From Oscillospiraceae bacterium (GTDB lineage Bacteria > Bacillota > Clostridia > Oscillospirales > Oscillospiraceae), in NCBI GenBank assembly GCA_009785525.1, contig WQWC01000018.1, forward strand, positions 1-39,672: a DNA stretch of 39,672 nt, given 5' to 3'. Positions 11,127 to 32,592 of this stretch are shown here, piece after piece. How positions within the stretch are numbered: the stretch's first letter is position 1; every line of letters begins with the position of its first letter. The notes below the pieces were generated by a model, which was not told where the DNA came from, ran no database searches, and saw only the letters and a program-made list of their open reading frames with translations. The position numbers and the translations under genes are program-made.

Positions 11127-11987
11127 ATGGGTATAGGTTATTTAACTATACAAACGAGAACTGATAACGACACTCTGCCTATAGAAGCGCACGTTACGAT
11201 AACACAGCCGGACGGTACCGTGCTTTACAAAACTGATACCAACCCCAAATCCGGAAACACCGAAACATTTGAACTGACCGCGCCCGATAAGGAACTGACT
11301 CTTGACGCGAACTATAACGCCCCGGCATATTCCGTCGTTGACGTCCATGTTAACGCAGAAGGCTACAGAACCGCACATGTCCACAATGTTGAAATTATCG
11401 ACACGCGGACAGCAATACTCCCAGTCACAATGGTGCCTATTGAGGATCCGGGCGGCAATCCGGATATCGACATTAATATCGACCCTGTAACCCTGCTGGA
11501 TCCGACAGCGCACACGCTGATGAATATCACACTTGCCCCCCTGTCGCTGCTTGACCCGACTCCGCGCGACCATGTCGCGCCGCCGGATGATCCTCCCGAT
11601 TCCGCCGGAGCCGGTGTACTAAGGGAAGTTTTCATCCCCGATTTTATAACAGTCCATCTGGGAAGGCCGGATAACCCCGCTGCCAGAAATGTCAGAGTCA
11701 GCTTTATCGATTACATAAAAAATGTCACCTCCAGCGAGATTTATCCAACATGGCCGCATAACGCGCTTGTCGCAAACATACACGCCATAGTGTCGTTTAC
11801 GCTTAACCGGATATACACCGCTATACGTTTTTTGAGAATGTTTTGTTTTTTGCCTTCCCAAACGATGTATAACACCCCTACCCCATCATTTGGGGAGGTA
11901 ACCCACATACTTGAAAAATATCCTTACATCTTGCATTATAACCCCGTTTGTTTTCACTCTTGCACCTATTTCTATTTTATTGATTAG
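11127..11987 (+). CDS. 5' part of an interrupted SpoIID-like / peptidoglycan-binding protein gene
   Basis: The true start is the ATG at 11127, with GGAAAGG about 10 bases upstream. As it stands it encodes 286 residues: 230 belong to the original gene (to 11816) and the rest read into the inserted element. There is no signal peptide. Residues 1-95 look like a carboxypeptidase-regulatory-type beta domain. After a proline/aspartate linker, about residues 165-230 begin a SpoIID-like domain (FIDYIKNVTSSEIYPTWP, NALVANIHAIVSFTLNRIYT; compare the ALKAQAVAARTYA segment of SpoIID). The domain is cut in the middle of this helix. The missing part begins at 32569 in the same codon phase. SpoIID proteins are lytic transglycosylases of engulfment; a spore-related role is inferred. 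After the junction the frame continues antisense to the recombinase gene and is meaningless. Confidence 0.85.
   Translation: MGIGYLTIQTRTDNDTLPIEAHVTITQPDGTVLYKTDTNPKSGNTETFELTAPDKELTLDANYNAPAYSVVDVHVNAEGYRTAHVHNVEIIDTRTAILPVTMVPIEDPGGNPDIDINIDPVTLLDPTAHTLMNITLAPLSLLDPTPRDHVAPPDDPPDSAGAGVLREVFIPDFITVHLGRPDNPAARNVRVSFIDYIKNVTSSEIYPTWPHNALVANIHAIVSFTLNRIYTAIRFLRMFCFLPSQTMYNTPTPSFGEVTHILEKYPYILHYNPVCFHSCTYFYFID
11798..11840. other. attL: left junction of the serine-recombinase element
   Basis: Host coding sequence reads through CACCG at 11816-11820 and then changes to element sequence. Inside the element, CGTTTTTTGAGAA (11826-11838) begins exactly 7 bases after the AC at 11817-11818. The same 13 bases occur inverted at the other end (32549-32561), also 7 bases from the matching AC. 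This marks 11817/11818 as the probable crossover dinucleotide. Confidence 0.87.
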
Positions 11988-13514
11988 AGCTTCGAGCAAT
12001 TCTCTATCCACCTCAATGATGGTGGATTTTTCTCTTATGAGCGCAGTCCAATGTCGAGTGTCGTTTAATTTGTTTTCGATTTCCTCGGCAGATTCGGTCA
12101 GCAGAAAAAGTCTGCGTTCTAATTTAGTTCTGTCGGCTTCCAATTGTTGTATTGTTTCACTGAACTTGTCTGTTGAAATAAATCCACTAATCTTATCTTC
12201 ATACAAAGCATCAATTTGATTGTCAAACGAATACAGCTGTTGTTCGAGAGTGCGTATTCCTTTGGCAATGGCGGCCTTGTCGCCTCGTTGGTTGCCGACA
12301 AGCGATTGCATGAGCTTTTCGACAACGCGATCTTCGTCAAACTCGATTTGCGCTGCGGTTTCCTTTATATGCTCCAACACTATGGATTTCAGGTTTTTTC
12401 CCATAATCCTGTGCGTGGAACAAGCCGTCCCACCGCTGCAGGTGTAGGTTATACAGCCATAGGCACTTATGTCTATTACTTTGCCGTTTTTATTCGCCTC
12501 TTGACGCTTGAAATAACCCATCTTTGCTCCGCAGTCCGAACAGACAAGCAGACCTGAAAACAGGCTCCGCTGCGGCGCTTTTAACATTACGCCTTTCTTT
12601 TTTGCCGTATTGTTGATTGTTTGTACCTTGTCCCACAACTCGTTATCAATGATGGCGGGATGCGTGTTCTCAACCCGTATCCACTCACTCTCGTCGCACC
12701 TGTATTCATACTTGTCGCGATATGAACGAATGCCGCGTTTTAATGAAACCGTGTGACCAAGATACAGTTCGTTGCAAAGTATCAGTTTGACGGTTCGACT
12801 CGTCCAAACTTCGGTAGTTATTGCCGTCGTTTCACGTCCTTGCTGCTTGAAGTAGTACAACCTCGGCGGCAAGACTCCCTCTTTGTTAAGCTCGCCTGCG
12901 ACTTTGGAATAACCCATCCCGATTGCCCTGAGTGCAAACATTTTGCGGACAACTTCGGCAGCATGCCTGTCAACCACCAATCGATGACGTTCGGTGTCAT
13001 GTCTGTCATAACCGTATGGCGTCGTTCCCGAGAGTTTGTGTCCCTCTTTTGCTTTTGCGTGCATTACTGACTTAATGCGTCGGCTGACATCACGCACATA
13101 GAAGTCGTTTATGGCATTGATAAACGGCAAAATATCATTTTCGCCGCTTTCGGTATCAATGCCGTCAGACAAAGCCACAAATCTGCATCCCAGCGCGGGG
13201 AGCTCTTCTTCCAAATATCGCCCGGTTTCAAGATAGTTTCGGCCAAAACGGCTGAGGTCTTTTACGATAACGAGGTTGATAATCCCGGATCGAACGTCAT
13301 CCATCATATTCCGAAAGCCTCTGCGATCGAAGTTTGCTCCGCTTACACCGTCGTCAATATAGGTGCGTGTTTCGGTCCACCCCGGCATTATGTCGATGAA
13401 TTTGGATAACATGGCGTCTTGGTTTTCAATACTGGCAGAATCCTCGCCGTTACGATGATAACCTCTACTATCGCTTGAAAGGCGAATGTACTTGCCGACT
13501 TTGTATACCTTCAT
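11886..13514 (-). CDS. Large serine recombinase (TnpX/TndX-like), element-terminal copy
   Basis: The 542-residue protein begins with the serine resolvase catalytic domain: VGKYIRLSSDS with the nucleophile at Ser13, DDGVSGANFDRRGFRNMM, and the IVKDLSRFGRNYLETGRYLE arginine cluster. A recombinase domain follows (about residues 160-270: HKLSGTTPYGYDRH, GMGYSKVAGELNKEGV), then a zinc beta-ribbon (LLVCSDCGAKMG, YTCSGGTACS) and a C-terminal coiled coil (about 410-490). Such enzymes carry out site-specific integration and excision through 2-bp core exchange. Its 3' end lies 69 bases inside attL. Its ATG overlaps the stop of the upstream recombinase gene by 4 bases, so the two are translationally coupled. 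All catalytic residues I can identify are present, so it looks functional. Confidence 0.95.
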   Translation of the reverse strand: MKVYKVGKYIRLSSDSRGYHRNGEDSASIENQDAMLSKFIDIMPGWTETRTYIDDGVSGANFDRRGFRNMMDDVRSGIINLVIVKDLSRFGRNYLETGRYLEEELPALGCRFVALSDGIDTESGENDILPFINAINDFYVRDVSRRIKSVMHAKAKEGHKLSGTTPYGYDRHDTERHRLVVDRHAAEVVRKMFALRAIGMGYSKVAGELNKEGVLPPRLYYFKQQGRETTAITTEVWTSRTVKLILCNELYLGHTVSLKRGIRSYRDKYEYRCDESEWIRVENTHPAIIDNELWDKVQTINNTAKKKGVMLKAPQRSLFSGLLVCSDCGAKMGYFKRQEANKNGKVIDISAYGCITYTCSGGTACSTHRIMGKNLKSIVLEHIKETAAQIEFDEDRVVEKLMQSLVGNQRGDKAAIAKGIRTLEQQLYSFDNQIDALYEDKISGFISTDKFSETIQQLEADRTKLERRLFLLTESAEEIENKLNDTRHWTALIREKSTIIEVDRELLEALINKIEIGARVKTNGVIMQDVRIFFKYVGYLPK

Positions 13515-15133
13515 GCACTTACCGCCGTTTCACCGAGCAGTCCAAGACGGTCAATATCACCGACGAAGTTGTAGATAATCCGAATGTCACACACTCGCCT
13601 ACCGTCCACAATTTGCGTTTCACCGATAATAATGCGGTCTATGAGCAAATGAAGCATTTCAGCATCAAGTGTTCCGAGCTTTGCGCACTCACGAATTTTA
13701 CTCACCCAAGCATCGGCATTGTGCATCGCCGGTTTTATTCTGCCAATGCGTTTTTCAAGCACGGCAATTGCCTTAGCTTTTTCTAAACGCGCCTGCTCGT
13801 ACTTTTGAATTTGCCGCTTGAAGAAACTGTCCAGCACAAGTCCCGCAATTTTGTCTTCATACAAGCTTTCAATTAGGTTGTCGAATCTGTCAATTTGTTT
13901 TTTGCAAAGTTCCAACTCGCTTTGATATGCGGCAGAATAATTACTGCTTGACTGTCCGGCTACAATTGCATTGATGATACGTCCTTCGTCATACTCTACT
14001 AATTCGGCATAGTTCCGCAACTGCTCCACCACCAATTCCGTCAAGGTGCTTTCGTCGATTGAATGAATTGTGCAAGCATTTTTGCCGCTGCGCCCGTAGG
14101 TGCTGCACATATACGAAACACGCCTATACTCGCTGCCGTCTTTGCGTGTGCGACGTTCTACCTGCGCACGATGCTTGAATCCACAATCCGAGCAACAGAG
14201 CAATCCCACAAACAGGTTTGTGCCGCCGTCTGTTCTGCGGCTGGGGCGGTACTTCTTGTGTATAAACTCTTGCACACGCTCCCATAAATCAAGATCTATG
14301 AGTGGCTCGTGAGTATTATCACAGCGCACCCATTCGTCGCTGTTTTTTCTAACTTGCTTTTGGTTTTTGTACGACATCGAACCGGACTTGCAAGCCACCA
14401 AATTGCCGATATAAACTTCGTTTCGTATCATGCCTTGAATGGTCGTTTGCGTCCATAGCCGACTGGTTTTGGTGGGGTTTTTCTCACCTTTGCGTTGGTA
14501 GTACAACTCCCGCGGTGTAGCAATTCCGTCATCATTAAGCTGAACGGCAATGGCTCGAAAGCCCATTCCTGCCGCCCGCATCGAGAAAATTCTGCGCACG
14601 GTTGGCGCGGTGTTCTCGTCAATGACGAGCTTGTGGCGATTATCCGGGTCTTTTTGGTAGCCGTAAGGTGCATATGTTCCCAAGAATTTACCGCTTTGCG
14701 CTGAAACTCGTTTTGCAGCCCGTACTTTCGTACTTGTGGACTTAGAGTGCTGTTCATTGAACCAGTTGCGAAACACCATCATATCGTCGAGCTTTTCGTT
14801 AAGCGAGATGAGCTCGCAACCATATTCGGGCAGGAACACTTCAGCGAGATTGCCGACCTCTAAGTAGTTTCTTCCAAGTCGAGAAAGGTCTTTAATCAGT
14901 ATGGTATTTATGACAGCGTCACGAACATCAGCCATCATTTTTTGAAACGCAGGCCTATTTTGATTCGTACCACTAAACCCGTCGTCCTGATATATCTCGG
15001 CTACATGCCACCCCATTTTTTTTGCGTATTTTTCGAGCATGAGCTTTTGATTTTCGATTGAAATGCTTTCTCCTGCTCTGCTGTCCTCTTTACTAAGACG
15101 GACGTAAATACCTACTCTTTTTTGTTTTGCCAT
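13511..15133 (-). CDS. Large serine recombinase (TnpX/TndX-like), promoter-proximal copy
   Basis: This 540-residue recombinase has the same domain order as its neighbour but is clearly divergent from it. VGIYVRLSKEDS places the nucleophile at Ser14, followed by DDGFSGTNQNRPAF and LIKDLSRLGRNYLEVGNL. The recombinase domain contains GTYAPYGYQKDP and GMGFRAIAVQLNDDGI, then a zinc ribbon (LLCCSDCGFKHR, YMCSTYG) and a C-terminal coiled coil. I use the start at 15133 (GGAGG, 5-base spacing) rather than an in-frame ATG at 15157. Two tandem recombinases with a 4-base overlap suggest a hetero-oligomeric pair, as in CcrA/CcrB, or a division of labour between integration and excision; the sequence cannot decide. 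Confidence 0.95.
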   Translation of the reverse strand: MAKQKRVGIYVRLSKEDSRAGESISIENQKLMLEKYAKKMGWHVAEIYQDDGFSGTNQNRPAFQKMMADVRDAVINTILIKDLSRLGRNYLEVGNLAEVFLPEYGCELISLNEKLDDMMVFRNWFNEQHSKSTSTKVRAAKRVSAQSGKFLGTYAPYGYQKDPDNRHKLVIDENTAPTVRRIFSMRAAGMGFRAIAVQLNDDGIATPRELYYQRKGEKNPTKTSRLWTQTTIQGMIRNEVYIGNLVACKSGSMSYKNQKQVRKNSDEWVRCDNTHEPLIDLDLWERVQEFIHKKYRPSRRTDGGTNLFVGLLCCSDCGFKHRAQVERRTRKDGSEYRRVSYMCSTYGRSGKNACTIHSIDESTLTELVVEQLRNYAELVEYDEGRIINAIVAGQSSSNYSAAYQSELELCKKQIDRFDNLIESLYEDKIAGLVLDSFFKRQIQKYEQARLEKAKAIAVLEKRIGRIKPAMHNADAWVSKIRECAKLGTLDAEMLHLLIDRIIIGETQIVDGRRVCDIRIIYNFVGDIDRLGLLGETAVSA

Positions 15134-15229
15134 TTTTACCTCCATGATAATTGACAAAACACAGGGCTACGATTTACATTCATATTGTAGCGCGCTTTTT
15201 GTAATAGCGCAGCCCCTTTTGCCAAAATT

Positions 15230-15409
15230 TTATTCGTGTTTCCTTTCGTTCTCGTCACGCAGAATTTTGCGGATTATCAAGTCTTCAGTTACTGTGGTGA
15301 AGCTGGATTTACCGATATATTCGTTTGTTACTCGATATGTTACCTTTCCGACTTGCTTTTCGCGATAGGTAGTAAGCGGTGGTTGTAATTGTTTAGTTAT
15401 TACGGACAT
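15230..15409 (-). CDS. TnpW-like small transposon protein, 59 residues
   Basis: A short frame on the minus strand, preceded by GGAGG with 7-base spacing, encodes a 59-residue protein starting MSVITKQLQPPL and containing VGKVTYRVTNEYIG and TVTEDLIIRKILRDE. Its size, pattern (proline-rich start, then a G-x-x-Y-x-V core, then a D-K/R-I-L helix) and position just upstream of a TnpX-type recombinase match the TnpW family of transposon-encoded small proteins. The function of that family is not established; a regulatory or accessory role in recombination is a guess. It lies 96 bases upstream of the first recombinase gene and is probably in the same transcript. Confidence 0.72.
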   Translation of the reverse strand: MSVITKQLQPPLTTYREKQVGKVTYRVTNEYIGKSSFTTVTEDLIIRKILRDENERKHE

Positions 15410-15555: not shown

Positions 15556-15891
15556 GCAAATAACATGCTTAAACACAATGACTTCTTCGGCAGTGTTGAA
15601 TATTCCGCTGATGATGATTGCTTTTTCGGCAAGATCATCGGGACACCCGACCTCGTGGCATTTGAGGGCGATAGTGTTGAAAACCTTAAAATTGCCTTTA
15701 AGGAAGCAGTAGAGAACTATCTCATTCTTTGTAGCGAAGCAAGGAAAGAGCCGTAAAAAACATACAAGGGTTCTTTCAATATTCGTATCTCTCCTGATCT
15801 GCACAAGGAAGCTGCAATGCTGGCAAGCAGAAAAGGAATTTCACTCAATGCTTTTGTGGAAAAAACCATTTATGATGCGGTTAATTCCTAG
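15553..15891 (+). pseudogene. hicB: HicB-family antitoxin gene with an in-frame stop codon; no HicA partner
   Basis: The frame from 15553 reads as a HicB antitoxin: FFGSVEYSADDDCFFGKIIG, FEGDSVENLKIAFKEAVENY and EARKEP, then TAA at 15754-15756, and in the same frame KTYKGSFNIRISPDLHKEAA and GISLNAFVEKTIYDAV to the stop at 15889-15891. The second part is the ribbon-helix-helix DNA-binding domain of HicB, so one nonsense codon separates the partial RNase-H-like domain from the DNA-binding domain. No hicA toxin gene is present on either side. It ends in a terminator at 15911-15957. Most likely it is a decayed remnant; expression as two polypeptides is possible but unsupported. Confidence 0.82.
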
Positions 15892-16227: not shown

Positions 16228-16575
16228 CTACTCGTCTATGGCAACACCCTCTGGGCTTACTACTTCAATCTCAAATTGAGCTGTGCCTCTATGTCTGGTA
16301 AGCGTGACGACATAGGTGCTAGGGACGCTAAAATCTATATCATGCGTAACGGTTATCGCGTCACAATACATGCTGTCGCTACTACTAGCTCTGCCTTGTC
16401 TCAAAATCAAGTATACTTCGCCACCAGTTAAATCAAGTCCAGTATCAACTCCTGCCACGTATATCAGCTTATCCGGTAGGATATATATCTCCATGCCAAC
16501 AATCTCCAAACCGAAATCACATCCAGATAGAAAAACGCTAATTAGTATGAGTAGTGGCAATATTCTTTTCTTCAA
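16228..16575 (-). CDS. Small lipoprotein, candidate immunity protein for the second displaced Rhs tip
   Basis: This 115-residue protein starts at a TTG (16573-16575) with AAGGAG 11 bases upstream, inside the end of the Rhs module before it; the gap is 5 bases. A type II signal peptide (MKKRILPLLILISVFLSGC) predicts lipidation at Cys19 and a place outside the membrane. The rest resembles a single bacterial Ig-like domain (IYILPDKLIYVAGVDTGLDL, ending VVSPEGVAIDE). I do not recognise a specific family. Its tight coupling to an Rhs C-terminal module suggests an immunity role; this is positional inference. The frame after its TAG is the DUF5050-like remnant, so its 3' end may have been altered by recombination. 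Confidence 0.7.
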   Translation of the reverse strand: MKKRILPLLILISVFLSGCDFGLEIVGMEIYILPDKLIYVAGVDTGLDLTGGEVYLILRQGRASSSDSMYCDAITVTHDIDFSVPSTYVVTLTRHRGTAQFEIEVVSPEGVAIDE

Positions 16576-16580: not shown

Positions 16581-17768
16581 TTATCTCCTTCTTCTGGGAA
16601 ATCTATATGTGGGCAAAGGCAGACCTGTTGCAACGGGGTTCGGTCTAAGGCCTCCGTTTCTATCATAGGCGTATAAATTCCCGTTGGTTGCCGCCAAATA
16701 TACCGTTGGTACAAGAAATCTTGTAGGCCATTTGTCCTGTGAAGAAAATTCAGTTCCCCTATGACAATAACAATGTGGATGGGTATGTACGAATGCCACC
16801 ATCAGCATATCAAGCCGACTAAACGTTGCTCCGGCGGAAATAGTTCCAAGTATTACATTGCGAACAACATCAGCGTGTCCTCCCCTTGGCATATCGAAAT
16901 AAGTAAACAGCGGCACACCATTAAAGTTTCTTCTGTAAATGAAACTTCCTCTTTCGCGATTGTCCTCAAATGTTCGAGGGAGATTTTCCTTTGCAAACCC
17001 TGCAGCTGCCGCATCGGCGCTTATAAACCAACTTCCTGCGCTGGAGAGGCCAAACGCTGCAAAGAAGCCTTCGTAAACAACCATCGAACCGGAGCTGTTT
17101 ATATACGTACCGAGAACGCCTTCTGTAAATGAACGAGTTATGTTATTGACTGTTACGGTTGCCGTACTTGTGGCGGCGTTCCAAACAACAGTCCCGTTGT
17201 TTGCTTCAGCGAAGGCCCTAAGATTCAATCCGCTCGGGTCAACAAACATCACCGGGTTATGTACGCAATACATATACAAATTCCCAGCCTGCATTATTGC
17301 AAGCGAACCATCTTGCATATTCCCCACATTCCAAAACGGATCCTCTTGCGTAAACCGCCCCGTTCTGGGATTATACACCCTAGCCCGCAGATAAATCGTC
17401 GCCGTCTCCCAATCGTAATACTCGCCAGCAAATCGAAACGGATTCGTATTCCCCTCATCCTGATCACGCTCGACCCCGAACGCGTCGTAGTGATAAGTAT
17501 GCAGCAGCTCACCCGCGTTGTCAACTCGTTGCACGACGTCGCCTCTTGCGTTGAACAAGTACCAGCCGTGATGCTCACTGCGGAGCAATCGCCCGCCGCC
17601 GCCTCGGTAGAAGCGGTTGATTACGGCGTTGCTGGCGTTGAGCTCCAGCACGATGTGCGCGCCGTTCCAGACGTGGGTTACTCTTGTGTGATTCGATGTC
17701 TTCGAGTGCCGCAGACCATCGGCGCGGTAGACGTACGTGACGCTCACCAGCGCGGCGCCGTTGAGCAC
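16581..17768 (-). CDS. Displaced Rhs C-terminal module 2, JAMM/DUF4329-like tip
   Basis: The 395-residue frame (GTG start; Rhs-like coding sequence extends in frame to about 17852, directly behind the stop of the preceding lipoprotein) has no signal peptide. It begins with the Rhs core (YVYRADGLRHSKTSNHTR, WNGAHIVLELNASNAVI, NPFRFAGEYYDWETATIYL) and ends the core at FVDPSGL, nucleotide about 17229. The variable tip of about 220 residues contains VHTHPHCYCHRGTEFSSQD, that is H-x-H-P followed by S-x-x-D as in JAMM/MPN metalloproteases and DUF4329-type toxin tips. The expected upstream Glu may be in NRERGSF. It would be inactive unless recombined onto the full-length Rhs gene through the shared core. 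The lipoprotein gene 5 bases downstream is its likely immunity partner. Confidence 0.8.
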   Translation of the reverse strand: MLNGAALVSVTYVYRADGLRHSKTSNHTRVTHVWNGAHIVLELNASNAVINRFYRGGGGRLLRSEHHGWYLFNARGDVVQRVDNAGELLHTYHYDAFGVERDQDEGNTNPFRFAGEYYDWETATIYLRARVYNPRTGRFTQEDPFWNVGNMQDGSLAIMQAGNLYMYCVHNPVMFVDPSGLNLRAFAEANNGTVVWNAATSTATVTVNNITRSFTEGVLGTYINSSGSMVVYEGFFAAFGLSSAGSWFISADAAAAGFAKENLPRTFEDNRERGSFIYRRNFNGVPLFTYFDMPRGGHADVVRNVILGTISAGATFSRLDMLMVAFVHTHPHCYCHRGTEFSSQDKWPTRFLVPTVYLAATNGNLYAYDRNGGLRPNPVATGLPLPTYRFPRRRR

Positions 17769-17852
17769 TTGCGTCAGTTGATTGAACGCATTGTAGGTGC
17801 GGGTCTCAGTCTGTCCGGCGGAGACTCGCGTCAGCTGGTTGCCATTGCGGTC
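17229..17852. repeat. Rhs core repeat, copy in displaced module 2
   Basis: This stretch is nearly identical in DNA to 19652-20351 and, up to the codons for ETGTIYL, to 21830-22370. It encodes the conserved Rhs core, from about DRNGNQLTR to DPSGL. Such homology is the substrate for swapping tips between modules. Edges are approximate. Confidence 0.8.
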
Positions 17853-17870: not shown

Positions 17871-18872
17871 CTAATGAAACCTCTCCACATCACTTCCATC
17901 AAAATTCATCATATATATTTGTTCATTTGTTTCTCTGTCATAGAAAAAGATTCTGTCTCCTATAACATGAAGAAGAATGGCATCAGCGCTGTCAGTAGAA
18001 TTTGCTTCACCTGTATTTAAATCTATCCAATGAAAAGTCCATGGCGACGCTAATGGCATAGATGGCATACCGAATGTCATATAAAAAAGAATATTATCCT
18101 TTCTGTTAACAAGTTCGCCGGGCATTGTTCTATCTATAGAATGCACTGTGAAAAATTCTTGAGTAGAATCATCAAATTTTCTAATTGAACCACCGCCTGG
18201 TCCTAGTGCCTCTATATAGTATATGTTCCCTTTGTAAACAAAAAAGTTTCGACCCATGTTCCCTTGAAAAATCAGCTCTCTATTTTCCCCGGTTAATTCC
18301 ATTCTATATAATAAAGTTCGGCCGTTAATAATTGTAGCATAATAAATTTCATTATCATAAAAATATATATCGTGTATACTATTATCAGACAAAATTCTAA
18401 CATTGGTTCCGTCTAAATTCATAGCAAAACTATCGCTTCCTAAAGCATATATAGTGCCGTCAAGAACGAATAAAAAATTAACCCTAGTTTCACTGAGCCT
18501 CTCGTTCTGCTCCCCATCTATAGTCATTCTATAGATTTTGTTACTAGTACCATCAGCATAATAAATGAAACCATCAACAACATTGAGATATAAAAAATCT
18601 CCGGCTCCTATAGCTCGACTCTCTCCACTGCCTATACTTCTTCTGTTCAAAAAAGATTCTGATCCGATAACCGCCATATAATAAATATAATAATTATCAT
18701 TGGTTATAACGCCCAAGTTCCTTAAATTGCCTATGGTATTACCTTGGTTCTCCGGCATTAAATTTGTTAATACAGGTTCTTCACTATTAGATGGAATCAA
18801 AGCACAAGATGAAAGAAAAATTGATTGCAAGATTGCAATGAAAATGATCAAAAATTTTTTGTTTTTTAGCAT
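17871..18872 (-). CDS. DUF5050-like beta-propeller lipoprotein, candidate immunity protein for displaced module 1
   Basis: I place the start at 18872, with GGGAGG 9 bases upstream; the frame is open to 18911 without a ribosome binding site. The 333-residue product has a type II signal peptide (LIIFIAILQSIFLSSC, lipobox LSSC). It is then a series of short beta repeats of the DUF5050/propeller kind: IYYADGTSNKIYRMTIDG, IYALGSDSFAMNLDGTN, IYYATIINGRTLLYRMEL and IFFYDRETNEQIYMMNFDG. The protein should lie on the outer membrane face. It is located between displaced Rhs modules 1 and 2, and module 2 begins in frame directly after its stop. Position after module 1 suggests immunity; such propellers can also be general sensors. 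A broken second copy lies at 16018-16227. Confidence 0.75.
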   Translation of the reverse strand: MLKNKKFLIIFIAILQSIFLSSCALIPSNSEEPVLTNLMPENQGNTIGNLRNLGVITNDNYYIYYMAVIGSESFLNRRSIGSGESRAIGAGDFLYLNVVDGFIYYADGTSNKIYRMTIDGEQNERLSETRVNFLFVLDGTIYALGSDSFAMNLDGTNVRILSDNSIHDIYFYDNEIYYATIINGRTLLYRMELTGENRELIFQGNMGRNFFVYKGNIYYIEALGPGGGSIRKFDDSTQEFFTVHSIDRTMPGELVNRKDNILFYMTFGMPSMPLASPWTFHWIDLNTGEANSTDSADAILLHVIGDRIFFYDRETNEQIYMMNFDGSDVERFH

Positions 18873-18909
18873 ACTATATATCCTCCCGTTTTTTAATAAA
18901 TTGTTGTGC

Positions 18910-18945
18910 AACCTATGGGACGGCTATAAAACCGCCCCATAGGTT
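18910..18945. repeat. Imperfect 14-bp inverted repeat between displaced module 1 and its lipoprotein gene
   Basis: AACCTATGGG-A-CGG pairs with CCG-C-CCCATAGGTT around an 8-base loop. There is no T-run on the minus-strand side. It lies between the stop of module 1 and the ribosome binding site of the lipoprotein gene, so it could be a transcript-processing or attenuation hairpin. Confidence 0.55.
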
Positions 18946-20378: not shown

Positions 20379-21071
20379 CTAAAACTCAGATAGACGTTTC
20401 CAGTTAAGTTCTGCAGGGGTGTCATTGAAAGATTCACCTGACTCCTGCAAGATTTCATTTGTTTCGTGGTTCATGCAATCTATGGCAACGCTAACTGAGT
20501 ATCCCTCTATCAAGATGCCGTCAGGAGAAAGTGAATACTCTGTTATGATTTCTATAATATTACCTGCACTGTGCCGGATTGAACGCGTGTTTACCTCGTG
20601 AATCTCGTCAGTAATTTCAGAAGCAATAATACGATTTAACGAACTCCCGTCGATTGTATACACATTTAAGACTCTGATTGGCCGCCATTCTCCATGTTCA
20701 TCTCTACCTTTGTATCCGATAATCAATTCCGGAGAGCCGTTACTGTTTATGTCATAAAGAGCAAACACTAGAACTCCTCCATGATGAATGTGAATGAAGT
20801 CAACATCAAAAAACCAATAAAATCTTTCGGTTAGCGGAGAGCCAAGAATTATCTCAGCCGGTTGTTCACCATTTTCAAAGGCGAGGTATGTGGAAATAAT
20901 TGGCGCATAAACGCTGTGCCAAGCTGGAGTGTTCTCCGCCGGGCTATCCGGCACATCTGCCATCTCAGATTGGGATGGCGTGTTCCCTAATGTATTTGGA
21001 TTGGTATTAACGTGCATACACCCTGCCATAAGCAGTATCAATAAAATAACAACTATAAAATTTTTCTTCAT
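20379..21071 (-). CDS. Lipoprotein with FG-GAP/VCBS-like segment, candidate immunity protein for the full-length Rhs tip
   Basis: This 230-residue protein has a type II signal peptide (MKKNFIVVILLILLMAGC) with lipidation predicted at Cys18, then a low-complexity linker rich in N, P and S. It continues with a folded domain containing ALYDINSNGSPELIIGYKGR, the D-x-N-x-x-G calcium-loop type of motif seen in FG-GAP/VCBS-like repeats. The start has AAGGAG 11 bases upstream. It begins 21 bases after the Rhs stop codon. If the Rhs tip is an M23 peptidoglycan peptidase, a lipoprotein outside the membrane is in the right place to protect the cell; this is inference from position. Displaced module 1 begins in frame immediately after its stop. 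Confidence 0.75.
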   Translation of the reverse strand: MKKNFIVVILLILLMAGCMHVNTNPNTLGNTPSQSEMADVPDSPAENTPAWHSVYAPIISTYLAFENGEQPAEIILGSPLTERFYWFFDVDFIHIHHGGVLVFALYDINSNGSPELIIGYKGRDEHGEWRPIRVLNVYTIDGSSLNRIIASEITDEIHEVNTRSIRHSAGNIIEIITEYSLSPDGILIEGYSVSVAIDCMNHETNEILQESGESFNDTPAELNWKRLSEF

Positions 21072-24000: not shown

Positions 24001-27000
24001 TCGCCGAAGGTTACAGGGATTGTGATAGATTCCGCACCGGCGAAAGTGCCTTCGCCGTACGCGTGGAAGGTGAGGGTGGGTTCCTGCGGGGTCGTCGTCG
24101 CTTCCAATACCGCTTCTTCACGAATCAATCGCCTTGCCAAGTCGTAGGTGTAAATCATTGTGCGGTCAGACCCCACCACTCGGCTTGTGTTTCCGTCCAA
24201 ATAGTAGGTATATACATAACTCGACAGGACGTCATTCCCCTGCCTATTGGTTACACTGGTGACCAGATTGGCCAGATTGTATGTGTACTCGGTTATTACC
24301 CCATTGCCAAGCGTTACCCTGGTGCGGTTGCCGTTGAAGTCGTACGTATAACTTGAAAGCAATCCGCCGTTTGCCGATCTTACGGACTGCAAACGCTGGG
24401 CTGAGTCGTATGCGTATGTGTTATTGATATGCACATGACCGTTGATGGCCGTCGTCGCCCGCGTTACGTTATTTGCCGCGTTGTATTGGAATGTCTTGAC
24501 AACGCCGCCGGTCTCTTCCTGCCGGATCACACGCCCCTGTGCGTCGTAACGGTATGTTATGGTGTGAGAGCCGTTCGTTTCGCTGAACAATGCGCCTGTC
24601 CCGTGGAAAATATACGCACGATGGTTCACAACCGCACCATTTCGCGTCGCGTCTTCTCGCACCAGCCGTCCCAGAGTGTCATAGGTCATCCTAAATTGAG
24701 TGCCATTGCGGTCGGTTCTGGTCAAAAGCAAACCATTCTGATCGTAAGTAAAAGTCTCTATCTGACCCAACGCGTCTCTGATTTGGGTCAGCTGCCCCCT
24801 GTTGTTATATGTATATGTGGTCGTAGCTCCGCCGACCCGCTTGGTCAATATATTACCGGCAAGATCATACGTATATTCCGTCCGTATGCCATTTGCGCCG
24901 CCTGTTTGCGACGACATCAGCCGGTTATGCCGGAAAGTGTTCTCCGTAGTTGCCCAAATCTGCGCAGTTCCCGGAAGATTAACCAACGTGGCAGTCCGGG
25001 TCAAATTGCCGTTCCTGTCGTAAAAGTACCTGGTCGTGGCATATTGTATGACGTTACCGACTTGCTCGAACGGTACACGCTGCTCAATAAGCCGCCCAAG
25101 GGCATCATAGGTGAACCGCTGTATATTACCCATGAAATCGGTGGAAGTTACCAGCCGCCCCATGCTGTCATACGTATTGTGGGCCGTTCTTCCCGCTATG
25201 TTCCGGACAGACGTCACACCGAAGACGTTGTAGGTAAAGCGATTATCAACGCCCAGAGACCACTCTCTGGTAACGCGCCCGGCGAGGTCGTGAGTGTAGT
25301 TAACGATTCTGCCGCCGACAGTGCCCTCCTGTGTCCTGTGGCCAAATCGGTCGTATTGAACAAACGTCTGGATACTGGGTTGGATACTGGGTGCACCACC
25401 GCCATCAAGAACCGTTGTCACAATCTGTGAATTACCCTGCCAATCGTATACGTCGTGATAGACTGTCGTTTCTCGGTGCAACACTACGCCGCCAGCGTTT
25501 AATCTATCTGTAGTCACTACACGGTCAAATATATCATACGCAAAAGTTGTCCGCTGAGATGAGGCGATCCCTTGCGCGTTACGCGTTTCGATAAGCCGCA
25601 TACGATTGTCGTAAGTATTAGTCAGAATCTCAATGCCGTTGGGATTCGTTATGGTCAGCAGATTCCCGAAGCCGTCGTACCGATAAGCATATATTGCCCC
25701 CAAGACCGTCCTATGTGTTACTGTATTCTGTTGATCGTTGTATGCATACGTCACATGGCCTCCGGTTGGGAAGTCAATTCTTGTCACACGGCCAACCCTG
25801 TCGTATTGCCAGCGCGTTATATATCCGTTCGGATCGGTTTCAGAAAGCGTCCGCCACATTGTGTCATAGGTAAAGCGGCGTTCTACGATGCCGGTGCCGC
25901 CGACCAACGTGCCGTCCGGATTCCGTACATTGGTTGTTCGGATTGTTTGGGGCATGGTGCCACTGTTATATGTTATCTGTGTTGCAATAAAATCAGCACC
26001 CCTGCTGTCTGGGAACTCCCGTATTTCGGTCACGTTACCAAAGGCGTCATGCAAGAAGTCGGTTCGGGATTGGCGCACATTGTTTTCGTAAACGTACGTC
26101 CTTATGATATTTCGGCCATCCCAGGATAACACGTTCTGTTTCCTTATCGTCGTATGCGCGTCCGGTCTTGAGATTCTGGTCAGGGGCAGACCAAATCGGG
26201 CATCAAAGGTATAGTCTATTCTGTATCGCACGTCGGTGCTGCCATTGGCCAATGGACTGACGGACTGTATAACCTGTCCACGTTGGTTATATGTAAAATC
26301 CCGTCGGGTATTACGTGAAAAATTCCCACGATGCTCTGTCAGTTCAATGCGGGTGGGTAGTTTGTCGTTGTTGTAGGTTATACTTTGTTCCGACAGTAGT
26401 ATATTGCCGGCGTTGTACGTTCTCTGGGAGATGTTCAAGTGCAGGTTGTTGAAGGTGTAAACTGTGCGCAATCCATTGTTTTGCGTGACCGTCGTACTGT
26501 AGAGACTATTCATCCACCAATGAATAGTCAGATCAAAGGCACTGCCATGATAACTGAAGGTTGTTCTTAAATATTCACGCTGGTTATATATCAGAGACCT
26601 GGCTGAAACTTTATACACTTGCCGTGTAATAGTAAAATAATACCCCGAACAAGAACAATACCACAAACAATGCCCTGAAGAACAATGACAATTCCTCGAA
26701 CACCTCCACGCTCCAAAACACAACCCATAACAAGAACAATGACGCCGCGACAAAAAACCAAAGGTGTGCAGACTGTATTCAAAGCGCATCTGCGCCCCGG
26801 ATGGATACGTTACCCTGTTGAGTAATACTATAGATAATAGACGCACATACTGATTATGTGGTGGAGGACTGGAAGGGTTGGTGTATTCCTTGGAAGTATA
26901 GCCAAAGGAAGTCACAGCGCCAACTTGATCTTGAACGCTGGTCAACACAAATGTACTTATTTGCGAAAGAAAAAACTCTTCATTAAAGCTACACCAACTT

Positions 27001-28793
27001 TCCCCTAATACAAGGTGCCGCGACAAAGTCATGGCAAAATTGCTCCCATCCGAGCCTGTTATTGTAATTGTACTGGTTTGAGTAAGGGGTTGCCATTGAT
27101 TCTGGATATTGATTTCACTGCCGTTTGTGTCCACAATTCTTGTAAGAACCCACGAGGGCACCCACCCAGCAGCATACTCAAATCGGATCGTATTCCCAAA
27201 CCGGTCACGCATTCCTATTATACGTCCTTGATTAAAGTAATATGTTGTGCCGTTGTAAAAGCTCAGACGCTGATTTGATTGAAGAGGGCCGCTAACAAAG
27301 CCACTATAATGAGAAAGTTGCATGTCATTAAGGGTGTGGTGGCTTAATAATCCGTTCCAGCCTAGTTCAAATGTGCCTCTTCCGGGGACATACAGTGTAT
27401 TGTCCAAAATATATGGTAAATCAAATCTCCACCCAACACCGATGTCGCCCACACCGTTTAAAAAGTGATTTGTTAGATCCCAAACTGCTTTTGAAGAATT
27501 GTAGACTATGTCCAGATTCAGATCAAACCCATTGCGGCCTGGCAGATTTAGAACATTCATGCGGAACATCGCCGCACCGGTATTAAGGGATACCGATTCG
27601 TTAGCGTTAAAGCGCAGATTAAACGGATTTACAACTATACTGTCGTGCGACGGCGCTGACATAGGCGCAAAGCCGTAATTCAAGATTTCCATGCCGTACT
27701 CAAGTATCTGATACAATTCGGCAGCATCTATGCCTGCAACCGACATTACCGCTTCCATGTCGAAGGGATACTGCATTGCCGTTGACCTGTTCTGCGCCAA
27801 AGGCGGGTATGGAGGACCTATTTGTTCGTTGATCAACACGTCTTCTTGCTCAGCAACCAGCCTTGCCGATCCGGCGCAATACGTGCAAGGTTCCAGCATA
27901 AACGTTTGCGGCTCGGCCTGTAATGCCGCGCCAAGCGCAAACGCCGCTTCGATTTCTGCTGTACTGTGATTGTTCAAGAACATACGCCGAGCCTCGTTAA
28001 ACGCACTGGCATTGGTGAACGCCGCGTGAGCTGTATCTAGTTGGGCAGCTTCGATAAAACTATAATGTCTGCTACTGCGATTGGCAGACAGCAGATCTTG
28101 GACATCCAACAACCTTGTCTCAGTGCGGCTCTCGCCCGGCTCGTTTGTTAACATGAATGGTCTGTTGACCAGTCTTCGACTATTTACCTCATCGGATATA
28201 TCAAACCTTTGCGCAAACCATTCAAAGCGCCTGACTTCCATCATCCGCTCATGGATGGACGGCATTGCTTCAATTATCATCTGCGCTTCCGCATAATCAA
28301 ACAGTCCGCCGGACATGATCATTATGAGCTCTATGCTTTCCGCTAATGTAAAGCCATCGCGTTCCATTATGTCGAACAATTGGCTGGTAACATTACGGGC
28401 CCCGTAGGCTATATCCAGTTGTATAAAAATCAAAGAGCGTTCGTTTTCCGTCAAGTCGGAAAAGCCCCGCCCTTCGCTTAATAGCATAGAAAATTCATCC
28501 ATTTCACGCGCACGTGAATCCCGCTCTCTCATAAGCTCCTCAAGAGCTTCTGGAAACAGCTCGCTCAATTCATTGAGCTCCATATCTAACTGCGATATGT
28601 CTATGTACTGATTTCCGGAGAACGCATCAAATTCACCCATTTGCGACAGCATGTCGGGGTCAAAGCCATATGGTGCAATTTCAGGTAAATTCGTCCATGC
28701 CGGTCCGCTTTCAGCTGCAAGCGCTGTATATGGCAGAATCATTGCCATAATTAGAACTATGACCATCAGTTTCGTAAAAAGCTTTCTCATCAT
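21093..28793 (-). CDS. Full-length secreted Rhs/YD-repeat protein with dockerin-like and beta-helix insertions and M23 peptidase-like tip
   Basis: The 2566-residue protein starts with a signal peptide (MMRKLFTKLMVIVLIMAMIL, cleavage after TALAAES). About residues 30-400 are helical and unrecognised. YD/Rhs repeats run from about 410 to 1560, interrupted at 686-715 by nine cysteines in 30 residues. Then come a B-repeat-like region (about 1572-1675), a dockerin-like pair of calcium loops (DVDDDGVVDVFDF and DVVRDGVIDQVD, about 1678-1740) and a glycine-rich beta-helix (about 1760-2115; GGTIRNNSASTGGGVSIGG). The Rhs core closes at FIDPWGL (about 2371). An alanine-rich helix leads to the tip, which has M23/LytM features (DWYHRGGRDAVDIFAPEGT; THLAP; PPHLHIS). 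Rhs proteins wrap a toxic tip in a shell and deliver it to neighbouring cells. RBS GAGGAG and a good promoter precede the ATG. A lipoprotein gene follows after 21 bases. Confidence 0.92.
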   Translation of the reverse strand: MMRKLFTKLMVIVLIMAMILPYTALAAESGPAWTNLPEIAPYGFDPDMLSQMGEFDAFSGNQYIDISQLDMELNELSELFPEALEELMRERDSRAREMDEFSMLLSEGRGFSDLTENERSLIFIQLDIAYGARNVTSQLFDIMERDGFTLAESIELIMIMSGGLFDYAEAQMIIEAMPSIHERMMEVRRFEWFAQRFDISDEVNSRRLVNRPFMLTNEPGESRTETRLLDVQDLLSANRSSRHYSFIEAAQLDTAHAAFTNASAFNEARRMFLNNHSTAEIEAAFALGAALQAEPQTFMLEPCTYCAGSARLVAEQEDVLINEQIGPPYPPLAQNRSTAMQYPFDMEAVMSVAGIDAAELYQILEYGMEILNYGFAPMSAPSHDSIVVNPFNLRFNANESVSLNTGAAMFRMNVLNLPGRNGFDLNLDIVYNSSKAVWDLTNHFLNGVGDIGVGWRFDLPYILDNTLYVPGRGTFELGWNGLLSHHTLNDMQLSHYSGFVSGPLQSNQRLSFYNGTTYYFNQGRIIGMRDRFGNTIRFEYAAGWVPSWVLTRIVDTNGSEINIQNQWQPLTQTSTITITGSDGSNFAMTLSRHLVLGESWCSFNEEFFLSQISTFVLTSVQDQVGAVTSFGYTSKEYTNPSSPPPHNQYVRLLSIVLLNRVTYPSGAQMRFEYSLHTFGFLSRRHCSCYGLCFGAWRCSRNCHCSSGHCLWYCSCSGYYFTITRQVYKVSARSLIYNQREYLRTTFSYHGSAFDLTIHWWMNSLYSTTVTQNNGLRTVYTFNNLHLNISQRTYNAGNILLSEQSITYNNDKLPTRIELTEHRGNFSRNTRRDFTYNQRGQVIQSVSPLANGSTDVRYRIDYTFDARFGLPLTRISRPDAHTTIRKQNVLSWDGRNIIRTYVYENNVRQSRTDFLHDAFGNVTEIREFPDSRGADFIATQITYNSGTMPQTIRTTNVRNPDGTLVGGTGIVERRFTYDTMWRTLSETDPNGYITRWQYDRVGRVTRIDFPTGGHVTYAYNDQQNTVTHRTVLGAIYAYRYDGFGNLLTITNPNGIEILTNTYDNRMRLIETRNAQGIASSQRTTFAYDIFDRVVTTDRLNAGGVVLHRETTVYHDVYDWQGNSQIVTTVLDGGGAPSIQPSIQTFVQYDRFGHRTQEGTVGGRIVNYTHDLAGRVTREWSLGVDNRFTYNVFGVTSVRNIAGRTAHNTYDSMGRLVTSTDFMGNIQRFTYDALGRLIEQRVPFEQVGNVIQYATTRYFYDRNGNLTRTATLVNLPGTAQIWATTENTFRHNRLMSSQTGGANGIRTEYTYDLAGNILTKRVGGATTTYTYNNRGQLTQIRDALGQIETFTYDQNGLLLTRTDRNGTQFRMTYDTLGRLVREDATRNGAVVNHRAYIFHGTGALFSETNGSHTITYRYDAQGRVIRQEETGGVVKTFQYNAANNVTRATTAINGHVHINNTYAYDSAQRLQSVRSANGGLLSSYTYDFNGNRTRVTLGNGVITEYTYNLANLVTSVTNRQGNDVLSSYVYTYYLDGNTSRVVGSDRTMIYTYDLARRLIREEAVLEATTTPQEPTLTFHAYGEGTFAGAESITIPVTFGEPLDLSAVTAYVDYVDAQGQLAFWGWFTDAQLDGSGRSRNGHRRPLLADNPIAVPVSFTQAEFEALAVGGNIDLYAIWSLWGDVDDDGVVDVFDFQILTQYVRGSFPGYYAIVHAAADVVRDGVIDQVDVDVLMDYVVGMAPRPVLGQRPPPPVTASTWEDLRNVINGAPVLMPLTIQISDSFAAPSGTAGDAIVIPERRNIILVGVDGDMRTLTQTNDGQRHFIVNGGLTLGQNITLCGGATGPAALSHSREFEAMLSESALAEIEALLSELASSRRTESDVDALVEALAEAMRSGGAEALNAGGTGSGGVRVNAGGTFTMNAGSVIENRHGLTSGGAVELGSPSGGRATFNMTGGTIRNNSASTGGGVSIGGNSRMNMSGGMITNNSAMVGGGVLVLSTIASGQGLNMTDGSITNNHADGISFLGIYGGGISTFGGGSANFHVGPDAVVAGNTPDDICPPAPGGHAFDTYYSHELAVNAEYYISWDAMNAAVAAERGTAAVQSAAMSATGTITIIRAYTFDNRGNRLTMTVTGDETYTVTYTYDLNNRLLSTVRTGTDPQTATYTYDRNGNQLTRVTAGQTETRTYNAFNQLTQVLNGAALVSVTYVYRADGLRHSKTSNHARVTHIWNGAHIVLELNASNAVINRFYRGGGGRLLRSEHHGWYLFNARGDVVQRVDNAGELLHTYHYDAFGVERDQDEGNTNPFRFAGEYYDWETGTIYLRFRCYNPATGRFTQEDPYWGIHNMQSSVAAVLQAANLYVYVMNNPEMFIDPWGLFARAAWEAAWERAANAAKAIADAARAAMRAAADALRVVQIGGYDYVFPVDIETNTRIDWYHRGGRDAVDIFAPEGTLVFAITSGTLIRVQNDVSRAAGNRATLQLLGDDGMIYFHTHLAPNSPSDFGFATVGSGGTVRVEAGQPIGRLGNWGAADNTPPHLHISATPFVGANAPVDQHVGNWMRTLVGQLLG
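21675..22370. repeat. Rhs core region in the full-length gene
   Basis: From 22370 down to about 21830 this DNA is nearly identical to the displaced modules. Below that it encodes a related but different core end (FRCYNPATGRFTQEDPYW to FIDPWGL). The switch inside the core suggests a past recombination event. Confidence 0.75.
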
Positions 28794-29585: not shown

Positions 29586-32360
29586 ATGCGAACGAAAAAC
29601 TTTAAGAGGGTATTGGCAATAACTCTAATCCTCGCTATGATTCTATCAGGCACAATACAGGCGCTGGGCGCGCAACAATCGAACGATGTTTTTTCGGATA
29701 TTTCAGGACATTGGGCGAGAGAAGCTATACTAAACGCATACGAGACAAATCTTGTAACCGGATATCCGGATGGGACATTCAGGCCGGATTCGTTTATCAC
29801 GCGCGCGGAAACAGTAACAATTCTGAATAATCACTTCAACATGACTTCCAGAGAGCCTGTCCTTTTTACAGATGTTTCTCCTGGCTATTGGTTCTACAGC
29901 GCAGTTTCAGCGGCTGTCAGCGCCGGTTATGTCAGCGGATTCCCGGACGAAACTTTCCGGCCGAATGCAAATCTGACAAGATTTCATGCGGCTCTAATGA
30001 AACATAGAATATTGGGAAGTCTACAACCGAGTGATTTAAGTGTAATCGACAACTTTACAGATGTCGAAAGAATTCTGACAGGTAATTCGGAAAATTTATA
30101 CGCTATTGCTTTTTTTGTTGAAAATCAGATAATGCTTGGTTATGCGGATCAAACATTGCGTCTAGACAATCCGATCACCCGCGCAGAGTTTCTGACATTG
30201 CTGACAAGGGTTATTGCGCTTGACAATGTCGAAGAAGCCGATGATTCAGAAGACGGCTATGCGCAACCAACAGCACCAACAGCGCCAACAACAACACCGT
30301 CGACTCCCGGCGGCGGAGGCGGAGCAGGAGGATGGGTCGGTGGTACTTCGCACTTCCTTATAACGGTAACAGCGAAAGAAAGCGGCTCGGTAAGCGAAGG
30401 CGGCGTCTTTGCTTTCGGCTCATCGGTGACTCTCACTGCGACCCCTGATGAAGGATTCTACTTCTACGGCTGGTTTGAAAATGGCGAACGCGTTTATGCT
30501 GATGCAGAGTACACGTTTACAGTCACACGCGCAAGGACACTTCAAGCAAGATTTGTTACGGCTATAACAGTAACAGCGGGAGAAGGCGGCTCGGTAAGTG
30601 AAGGCGGCGTCTTTGCTTTCGGCTCATCGGTGACTCTCACCGCGACCCCTGATGAAGGATTCTACTTCTACGGCTGGTTTGAAAATGGCGAACGCGTTTA
30701 TGCCGATGAAGAGTACACGTTTACAGTCACACGCGCAAGGACACTTCAAGCAAGGTTTGTTGATGCTGACAGGTGGGCCGTTTCCCTGGTTTGCGTTTAC
30801 AGGACTTGGGACAGCGTCTACCACATGAGCGTTACAATCGGCACCCGCATGAGAGGAATGCCCGGAGAAGAAGCAGCTATAGATTGGCTAATAGCTGAAT
30901 TTGAAGCGCTTGGCCTTGAAACGGAGAAGCATACCTTTGACTCAGCGGCAAACAGCATGATGCAGAACATCGGATACATCACAATACATAATGCAGAGAA
31001 CTTCTGTGGTGTGGGGCGCTTTCTCGGCGGAATTGTAGATGGCAGAGAAAGATGGGGCGGCCCATTTGTGCTGCCATATCATGGACGTGTTTGGGAAGTG
31101 GGCGCGGCTGCTAATGGTCTCATTACAAGCATGACCGGTCCTGCCGAAGGTGTTACCGGAGAAGTAGTGTTCATAGGCGATATCCCCGCCGCGCTCAATA
31201 ATGCCGCAGGTATCAGGGCGCTGTTTGAAGCAGCCGAAATAGAGCATGGAACACTGGAAGGCAAAATTGCGATGGTTGGACTAAGACAGCCGACAGCAGC
31301 TATAGTTAACATTGCTATGGAGTTCGATGTTGCCGGCGTGATGGGACATTCAGTCACCGGAGGTCGCGGAAACTTTGGAGCGGCATCCAGCCCGAGCGTA
31401 ACCGCCGGTACACCAATCCCAGTCGTTGGTCTCGCTCTTGCCCAAGCGGAATGGCTCAAGGCATTTCTGGAACAAGAGCCGGTAACGGTGACTATACATA
31501 CGCAACGCTACGACACCCCTGTTTCCTGGAACGCCATCGGCAGAAAACCCGCGATAAACAATCCGGACACTGCGCCTATCTTCTATATCTTCGGTCATAT
31601 TGACACTGTTATAGGCGCTCCGGGCGCTAACGATAACGCCAGCGGTGTGGCCGTTACGCTGGAAGCAGCGAGAGCATTGTCGCAGCTTCACACCCCAGAT
31701 GTTGAACTTCGCTTTGTCGGCTTCGGACATGAGGAGTCCGGTCTGCGCGGAGCGAACCAGTATATACTCAGAATGCCCACCGAAGAACGAGATCGCATAG
31801 CCGGTGTATTTAATATGGATATGACGGCATCATCCGATTTTGTCGAGGCGCCGTACTGGACAATGTCAACAGTCAATGGCTTGCCAAACCTGGTTACCAA
31901 CACCTTCATTGCCACTGCCGACCGTCTTGGATTTTATGGAATCCTTCAGTTGGCCCAATTCAGCTCAAGTGACCACGTTCCATTCCACAACGCAATGAGG
32001 ACAGGAATGACTGGCGGAGCAGCGAATGCCGCCAACAATCCTTATCGAATACCTGCCGCCATGGGAATATGGCTCGGCAGAGTAAATCCGGGTATGATAA
32101 CACCAAGTAACTACACTGTTGAGCGCTACTATCATACACCGCAGGATACAATCTGGGAGAACATATGCAAAGAGCGCTTGAATATGTGCATACAAATTGT
32201 CACGGCATCCGTCTATTATATGGCGCGGAACTACCTGCTGCACTATGCAACGGTTGCGCCGATAACTGCGTCAAGTCTGGATATGCCTACTCGCATTTAT
32301 CCCGACATCAATGAGATCAATGGCTCATGGTATGAATTCGAACTTGAGATGGTCTCATGA
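29586..32360 (+). CDS. SLH-domain surface protein with two B-repeats and an M28-family metallopeptidase domain
   Basis: The 924-residue protein has a signal peptide (MRTKNFKRVLAITLILAMIL, then SGTIQALGA) and three SLH domains (about residues 37-85, 96-150 and 157-215) for non-covalent attachment to secondary wall polymers. A threonine/proline/glycine linker leads to two nearly identical 68-residue InlB-type B-repeats (about 259-394). The rest is an M28 (aminopeptidase Y/PSMA-like) peptidase with a PA-like insertion. Zinc and catalytic residues are visible in FGHIDTV, PGANDNASGVAV, GFGHEESGLRGANQY, VFNMDMTAS and SSDHVPFHN. It should be an exported, cell-surface aminopeptidase. AGGAGG lies about 10 bases before the ATG and a strong terminator follows. 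It is the last gene before attR, so it travels with the element. Confidence 0.93.
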   Translation: MRTKNFKRVLAITLILAMILSGTIQALGAQQSNDVFSDISGHWAREAILNAYETNLVTGYPDGTFRPDSFITRAETVTILNNHFNMTSREPVLFTDVSPGYWFYSAVSAAVSAGYVSGFPDETFRPNANLTRFHAALMKHRILGSLQPSDLSVIDNFTDVERILTGNSENLYAIAFFVENQIMLGYADQTLRLDNPITRAEFLTLLTRVIALDNVEEADDSEDGYAQPTAPTAPTTTPSTPGGGGGAGGWVGGTSHFLITVTAKESGSVSEGGVFAFGSSVTLTATPDEGFYFYGWFENGERVYADAEYTFTVTRARTLQARFVTAITVTAGEGGSVSEGGVFAFGSSVTLTATPDEGFYFYGWFENGERVYADEEYTFTVTRARTLQARFVDADRWAVSLVCVYRTWDSVYHMSVTIGTRMRGMPGEEAAIDWLIAEFEALGLETEKHTFDSAANSMMQNIGYITIHNAENFCGVGRFLGGIVDGRERWGGPFVLPYHGRVWEVGAAANGLITSMTGPAEGVTGEVVFIGDIPAALNNAAGIRALFEAAEIEHGTLEGKIAMVGLRQPTAAIVNIAMEFDVAGVMGHSVTGGRGNFGAASSPSVTAGTPIPVVGLALAQAEWLKAFLEQEPVTVTIHTQRYDTPVSWNAIGRKPAINNPDTAPIFYIFGHIDTVIGAPGANDNASGVAVTLEAARALSQLHTPDVELRFVGFGHEESGLRGANQYILRMPTEERDRIAGVFNMDMTASSDFVEAPYWTMSTVNGLPNLVTNTFIATADRLGFYGILQLAQFSSSDHVPFHNAMRTGMTGGAANAANNPYRIPAAMGIWLGRVNPGMITPSNYTVERYYHTPQDTIWENICKERLNMCIQIVTASVYYMARNYLLHYATVAPITASSLDMPTRIYPDINEINGSWYEFELEMVS
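30360..30767 (+). repeat. Tandem 204-bp repeat (two copies) in the SLH-M28 gene
   Basis: Copy 1 (about 30360-30563) and copy 2 (about 30564-30767) have a 204-bp period and differ at only a few bases. Each encodes one 68-residue B-repeat (for example SEGGVFAFGSSVTLTATPDE). Near-identity at the DNA level implies recent duplication or gene conversion. Confidence 0.88.
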
Positions 32361-32499: not shown

Positions 32500-32548
32500 G
32501 TACATTTAAGCATCGTAAAACCCTGCGTTCATGCCATTTCCTTGCACC

Positions 32549-32592
32549 TTCTCAAAAAACGAATAACCACCGAATGGTACCGTAGCCGCGGC
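32549..32592. other. attR: right junction of the serine-recombinase element
   Basis: TTCTCAAAAAACG (32549-32561) is the exact inverse of the 13 bases at 11826-11838. Seven bases later comes AC (32569-32570) within CACCG (32568-32572), after which host coding sequence resumes (codons T-E-W-Y-R-S-R). Joined ends give an attP with 13-bp arms, 7-bp spacers and a central AC. Confidence 0.87.

Follow-up and report, generated by a model that had tools for sequence, protein, structure and literature searches.

What does it mean for a spore-former to carry a spore cortex-lytic enzyme gene cut cleanly in two by a large element with its own recombinases? The question is raised by an Oscillospiraceae contig of 39,672 bp (C18, one of the 70 contigs of a 2.16-Mb draft genome, here called G000), the whole of which forms the window analysed here and in which the segment 11817-32568 (20,752 bp) interrupts the gene sleC. 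We consider it quite likely that this segment is a skin-like intervening element: an insertion by tandem large serine recombinases at an AC dinucleotide within sleC, belonging to a lineage specialised on this site, which the mother cell would excise and in doing so restore sleC. The two recombinase genes are labelled recA and recB (recA being unrelated to the RecA repair protein), and G, C and L numbers are our handles for genomes, contigs and loci.

The sequence-only reading of this DNA had described a gene split by a serine-recombinase element whose attP is symmetric about a core of 2 bp; this description is supported, and its coordinates for sites, arms and spacing proved exact to the base. 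The identity of the gene, its link to sporulation, the recurrence of the recombinase family at this codon and the further spore gene cut in the window's genome go beyond that description. The pentamer CACCG occurs at 11816-11820 and 32568-32572, and the two sleC pieces meet in phase on an ACC codon, with the joint in frame at AC—the core dinucleotide at 11817..11818 in the N-side junction (attL) and at 32569..32570 in the C-side junction (attR), both on the plus strand. The attP arm CGTTTTTTGAGAA at 11826..11838 (plus strand) has its exact inverse, TTCTCAAAAAACG, at 32549..32561 (plus strand); each occurs once in the window and lies 7 bp from AC. As a control, all 1670 pairs of CACCG at least 2 kb apart in the window were compared, and only in the junction pair did the symmetric inverted run exceed 7 bp; there it is 13. 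The 5′ part of sleC (11127..11816, plus strand, 230 codons) encodes the prepro region and the first part of a SpoIID-like catalytic domain, and the 3′ part (32569..34311, plus strand, 580 codons) encodes the remainder of that domain and five peptidoglycan-binding stretches. The total of 810 codons given in the earlier reading holds for the start at 11127; the 5′ open reading frame (ORF) could also begin at 11049, and close homologues begin MG.G or VG.G. The cut falls between the Tyr and Thr codons of RIY/TEWY, within the catalytic domain aligned to SleC, and the N piece acquires an element-derived tail, its ORF running to 11987. From the in-phase joint, together with the uninterrupted relative described below, precise excision is predicted to restore the sleC frame.

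Sequence, profile and fold concur that the interrupted gene is sleC, the gene for a spore cortex-lytic enzyme; the earlier label, a SpoIID-like gene, was right about the split gene and is refined as to its identity. A profile of 24 homologues matched PDB entry 9h68, the SleC of Clostridioides difficile, with an E-value of 2e-101, and the intact protein of G012, a genome of the same genus (locus L002), aligned over residues 50-446 with residues 91-477 of 9h68 (E 6.6e-73). The homology spans the prepro region, the SpoIID-like domain and the peptidoglycan-binding domain of SleC. A Foldseek search with a structure model for the catalytic part (mean pLDDT 75, pTM 0.57) ranked the four 9h68 chains first, with a TM-score of 0.57 by query length; SpoIID structures scored far below 9h68, and the Pfam SpoIID family stayed under its cut-off. 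In this model, which is of moderate confidence, the cut position appears as the end of a long helix in the catalytic domain, and because the cut lies inside that domain, neither piece of SleC should be active. In C. difficile, SleC is matured by CspB (PMC3789822); this and most of the literature statements below draw on PMC5595907, PMC10747680, PMC5025042, PMC3789822, PMC6957869 and PMC5553647.

The intact gene that the sequence-only reading expected in relatives does exist. Within the genus, sleC is present in 2 of 19 genomes, the window's own included, and the second bearer, G012, has it as one uninterrupted frame of 828 amino acids, whose DNA (82% identical between the two genomes) aligns ungapped across the joint. 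Uninterrupted frames also occur in the more distant relatives G027, G128, G192 and G241 of genus g10. A second intact SpoIID-like copy, which the earlier reading had named as contrary evidence, was not found in the window's own genome: no second SpoIID-like part was detected at E ≤ 0.001, the other matches being N-terminal or peptidoglycan-binding parts only. Comparison of the window with G012 gave a dN/dS of about 0.12-0.17 in the N piece and of 0.05-0.06 in the C piece, and over 691 columns 8 amino-acid changes were specific to the window and 11 to G012. This conservation of the pieces speaks against a long decay of sleC, though not against a recent insertion.

We then asked how often this arrangement recurs. 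Scans with recB yielded seven loci from IMG/VR and six from named metagenome-assembled genomes (MAGs), the latter labelled Oscillospiraceae and Defluviitaleaceae and, judging by their isolate names, presumably from termite guts. Five of these 13 loci (L022, L053, L054, L055 and L056) abut a sleC gene broken at the very codon cut in the window, and three (L017, L019 and L020) adjoin another serine recombinase gene; among the remaining five, the sequence stops within recA in L016 and L021, L018 carries an arm but no gene identified beside it, and no site is visible in L057 or L058. A genome search for the other halves then showed sleC of G313, G314, G315, G316 and G317 to be broken at this codon too, as it is in one IMG/VR record. 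In G316, both halves lie on one 110-kb contig, separated by a 25.8-kb insert of wholly different cargo (L114/L115; G316:C1, 57232-83059), made up of many small, mostly co-directional accessory genes; the two accessory genes scanned were of HEPN and Mrr type. In G317, only the N side is clean, and the C part is a fragment covering residues 55-151 beside another recombinase: this fragment (L123 1115-1405, G317:C18) adjoins a distant serine recombinase, as if cut a second time. A recA scan of IMG/VR found no relative, and recA searches across 400 genomes of the family and 391 of the class, the window's own among them, gave at E ≤ 1e-120 no more than distant relatives besides itself (41%, 39%; 42%); the element is therefore rare in the genomes sampled. 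A plasmid search returned, among the matches listed, generic peptidoglycan-binding names only.

The junctions of these elements lend independent support to the core. AC was present at six of six N-side and six of six C-side junctions—12 of 12, from seven genomes or records—with an arm near CCTTCYC 15 bp away as judged by eye; a regular expression recovered the recombinase-side arm in the CCTTCYC form in four of six cases. In G314, AC is the sole sequence that the two junctions share in register. In the window and G313, recA is found on the N side; G315, G316 and L022 have it on the C side (G314 has only recB there), and the element therefore occurs in both orientations relative to its recombinases. 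Elements located in other recombinase genes have the core TT (AA on the other strand) at the same 15-bp arm distance. At L017 7797-8156, L019 3746-4105, L020 7444-7833 and L129 9045-9536, related recombinase pairs adjoin a further large serine recombinase gene at its cut end, and TT was the core in the three of these four loci whose arm was read.

In a recombinase tree of 30 rows, all six recB genes from elements in sleC fall into a single clade (97/90), whose sister group consists of recB genes located in recombinase genes or in places left unresolved (96/94). The recA rows of this tree agree partly, with the window, L022, L055 and L056 united (100/99) and L053 unresolved. Since the sleC-inserted recB genes form one clade, the specificity for sleC probably arose once and then spread.

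How would such a split gene be served during sporulation? In C. difficile, sleC is transcribed from a sigma-K promoter (PMC3789822), and its expression drops strongly in both skin excision mutants (PMC5025042). For a sigma-K promoter of this species, a -35 element AC and a -10 element CATATAAT are given (PMC3789822). Upstream of sleC in the window, the pattern AC-N17-CATAAAAT at 11024..11050 (plus strand) matches a sigma-K-type promoter. A general pattern, AC-N16/17-CATANNNT, was defined after inspecting the window and G012 and was then present in eight of nine further sleC upstream regions (10 of 11 overall); it was not found ahead of the G313 gene with either start tried. Among 166 control upstream regions the pattern occurred in six, one of them belonging to G316's own sleC and one to a spoIVA frame, which leaves 5 of 165 outside sleC. 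Within the genus, SpoIVA is encoded in exactly the two sleC-bearing genomes (2 of 19).

Further spore genes are interrupted in some of these genomes. CotJA and CotJB form a single protein in G027 and G128. In the window's genome, a tandem pair of the same wider recombinase family lies beside cotJA, and G012 carries a recB-type recombinase gene beside cotJA on a 3.1-kb contig; each of the two genomes has an open recombinase gene at this place. The CotJB part sits on a separate contig in each genome, preceded by the same arm type with a shared AA core, and the two parts are in frame across the joint (G000:C22, L124 3922-4410, with G000:C35, L177 1459-1737; L173 and L179 in G012). Finding cotJAB cut alike in both species, which are 82% identical in their sleC DNA, suggests long retention; parallel insertions at cotJAB in G000 and G012 could also have given this arrangement. 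In G314, G315 and G317, the match to SpoIVA is split near residue 401-411 (L160/L161/L162, L156/L157 and L158/L159, respectively). In G315 and G317, a serine recombinase and the C part of spoIVA share a single open frame; in G314, a recombinase lies about 2.5 kb away. Both ends in G317 have ACCGAGGTAT in common, with an in-frame reading; the G314 gene looks in frame by eye, and the two parts in G315 are about 89 kb apart. Cuts in more than one gene are therefore found for sleC with cotJAB in the window's genome and for sleC with spoIVA in G314, G315 and G317. Whether serine-recombinase elements in these Clostridia cut multiple late sporulation genes together, such that making a spore needs several programmed mother-cell excisions kept across species and host families, is in our judgement an evenly balanced proposition.

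The content of the window's element refines the earlier picture of a serine-recombinase element, which stood, to one with two recombinases in tandem. Both are open frames with the full set of domains (Resolvase, Recombinase, Zn ribbon and DUF4368): recA at 11886..13514 (542 amino acids, minus strand) and recB at 13511..15157 (548 amino acids, minus strand), the clade of the latter tracking the sleC site. Just upstream of recB lies a conserved gene for a 59-amino-acid protein (15230..15409, minus strand). Relatives of this small protein stand just upstream of recB in eight further loci (L016, L017, L018, L019, L020, L021, L053 and L056), with 43-55% identity over 42-54 residues, and weaker relatives precede three distant recombinase pairs; no match was found in L022 (which begins inside recB), L054, L055, L057 or L058. 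The protein matched no family above threshold in Pfam, NCBIfam or PHROGs, and its position makes it a candidate directionality factor. On the strand opposite to the recombinases, a HicB-like frame with a stop was seen by eye at 15560-15880 (plus strand).

The remaining cargo comprises, on the minus strand, a small ORF with no Pfam or PHROGs family (16228..16575), an RHS-associated core fragment with a weak DUF4329 match (16581..17768), a DUF5050 protein (17871..18911), a further RHS-associated core fragment (18963..20378), an ORF with no family (20379..21071) and a 2566-amino-acid RHS-repeat protein with dockerin and peptidase M23 domains (21093..28793); an SLH-domain peptidase M28 protein of 924 amino acids follows on the plus strand (29586..32360). 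At 16581-28793, the two RHS-core fragments come after the large RHS/dockerin/M23 gene, an order that we take to resemble arrays of displaced RHS tips. A Pfam search of 11 chosen element ORFs found no phage-structural or conjugation family (relaxase, type IV secretion system). PHROGs searches with nine ORFs, the 2566-amino-acid one excluded, gave, besides integrase, invertase and transposase types, matches to a major tail protein and, weakly, to an endolysin within the SLH region of the M28 peptidase, and matches of unknown function on the RHS cores. On these sequence comparisons, the element is of the non-prophage integrative kind.

Put together as a skin-like intervening element, the course of events would be as follows. 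The tandem large serine recombinases would have inserted the element by an attP × attB crossover at AC within sleC, the lineage having specialised on this site. The element would then persist in the chromosome during growth and in the forespore, as skin and gin do, and would be excised in the mother cell, where sigma-K would transcribe sleC, so that SleC could be made only after the DNA is rejoined. We infer that excision would be timed to sporulation and that its direction would come from the 59-amino-acid protein or another factor. As related elements occupy exactly the same sleC codon in other spore-formers, these bacteria probably cut the element out to make working spores. Known intervening elements are nearly always found in mother-cell genes (PMC6957869).

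A false join of two unrelated stretches, produced in assembly or binning, is extremely improbable: the genomes are draft assemblies and the named ones are MAGs, but the att arms are exact and symmetric, the joint is in frame, the empty site in G012 is ungapped, and the same structure recurs in other assemblies, G316 having both halves on one contig. Such an artefact was rejected on the symmetry of the arms, the empty site and the recurrence. Hardly more credible is a gene fission in which the pieces act as separate proteins around a fixed element; both pieces are indeed long open frames, yet the cut lies inside the catalytic domain, at what the moderate-confidence model places as the end of a long helix, and the N piece picks up a tail encoded by the element. 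The position of the cut and this tail led us to reject fission.

A more serious rival, which we nevertheless hold to be unlikely, is that an ordinary element derived from an integrative and conjugative or integrative and mobilizable element has inactivated sleC, its excision being rare, unregulated and for transfer. Much of what weighs against a skin-like intervening element would fit this alternative. Conjugation genes (VirD4-type coupling protein and TrbL-like) stand beside the recombinases on the element side of the G315 junction, and G315 recB lacks approximately its first 89 residues (L117 13691 / L055 10001, G315:C12), so that one of the two G315 recombinases is probably dead. Related recombinases are also located in other serine-recombinase genes, and the wider family is not restricted to spore genes. 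Besides its split copy of sleC, G313 has an intact paralogue, and G314 carries recB alone. With these features of G313, G314 and G315, certain relatives seem defective or dispensable. No sigma-E/K pattern was found upstream of the operon of small ORF, recB and recA in seven of eight elements, the window included, and one of the eight has such a pattern; a looser scan of the entire window gave one sigma-K-like site, at 18920 (plus strand), not ahead of any recombinase. This missing promoter is not decisive, because the recombinase of the C. difficile skin element is constitutive and excision requires the directionality factor CD1234 (PMC5025042). Three further points weigh against a skin-like intervening element. 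A scan of IMG/VR for attP-like patterns gave 25 records, none with a homologue of the element's genes. The association of sleC with spoIVA is weak at the family level, SpoIVA being found in 86 of 97 genomes with strong sleC matches versus 162 of 203 without (p 0.07; 300 family genomes, sleC counted at E < 1e-40, lists compiled by hand). Finally, the insertion could be too young for decay to show. Against simple inactivation stand the sleC pieces, which remain open and conserved, the single clade of sleC-associated recB genes in MAGs of at least two named families, the cotJAB split at the same place in G000 and G012 with an open recombinase gene beside each, and the spoIVA split in three genomes. 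On these grounds, simple disruption was rejected as the leading account, and a skin-like intervening element in sleC remains the reading we prefer.

Elements of this kind are already known, the targets described in the literature considered here being sigK (in several species), spsM, gerE, spoVFB, spoVR and yabG. The closest parallel is gin in gerE of Bacillus cereus ATCC10987 (PMC5595907)—likewise a non-prophage element with several serine recombinase genes that splits a sporulation gene rejoined in frame via short att sites. It differs in its target and cargo, in that GirC and GirX excise it with the girAB operon dispensable, and in that its excision has been demonstrated. The skin element in C. 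difficile sigK (PMC5025042) is also a large serine recombinase element in a mother-cell gene that excision restores; it is, however, prophage-like, with one recombinase (CD1231), CD1234 as its directionality factor and sigK as its target. The yin element of Clostridium botulinum (PMC10747680) likewise intervenes in a late sporulation gene, yabG, but is prophage-like and reportedly occurs in a single strain. SP-beta in spsM (PMC4191935) and vfbin in spoVFB (PMC10747680) share the developmental rejoining of a gene and differ in being prophages or prophage-like elements, in other genes and in Bacillus. An interrupted sleC or spoIVA was not found in the open-access literature searched, by title and abstract; the searches likewise turned up no earlier account of sleC as a target, of tandem recombinases accompanied by a conserved small protein, of a lineage specialised in this way or of a second gene split in one genome.

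One recombinase lineage is here specialised on sleC in several groups of bacteria, and the large serine recombinases collected, their att cores mapped, also form a resource. The combination of one sleC-specialised lineage with a further spore gene cut in the window's genome makes it directly testable whether such splits are under selection and whether sporulation may rely on multiple coordinated excisions. If it holds true, several programmed excisions in a doomed mother cell would constitute a bacterial counterpart of programmed genome rearrangement.

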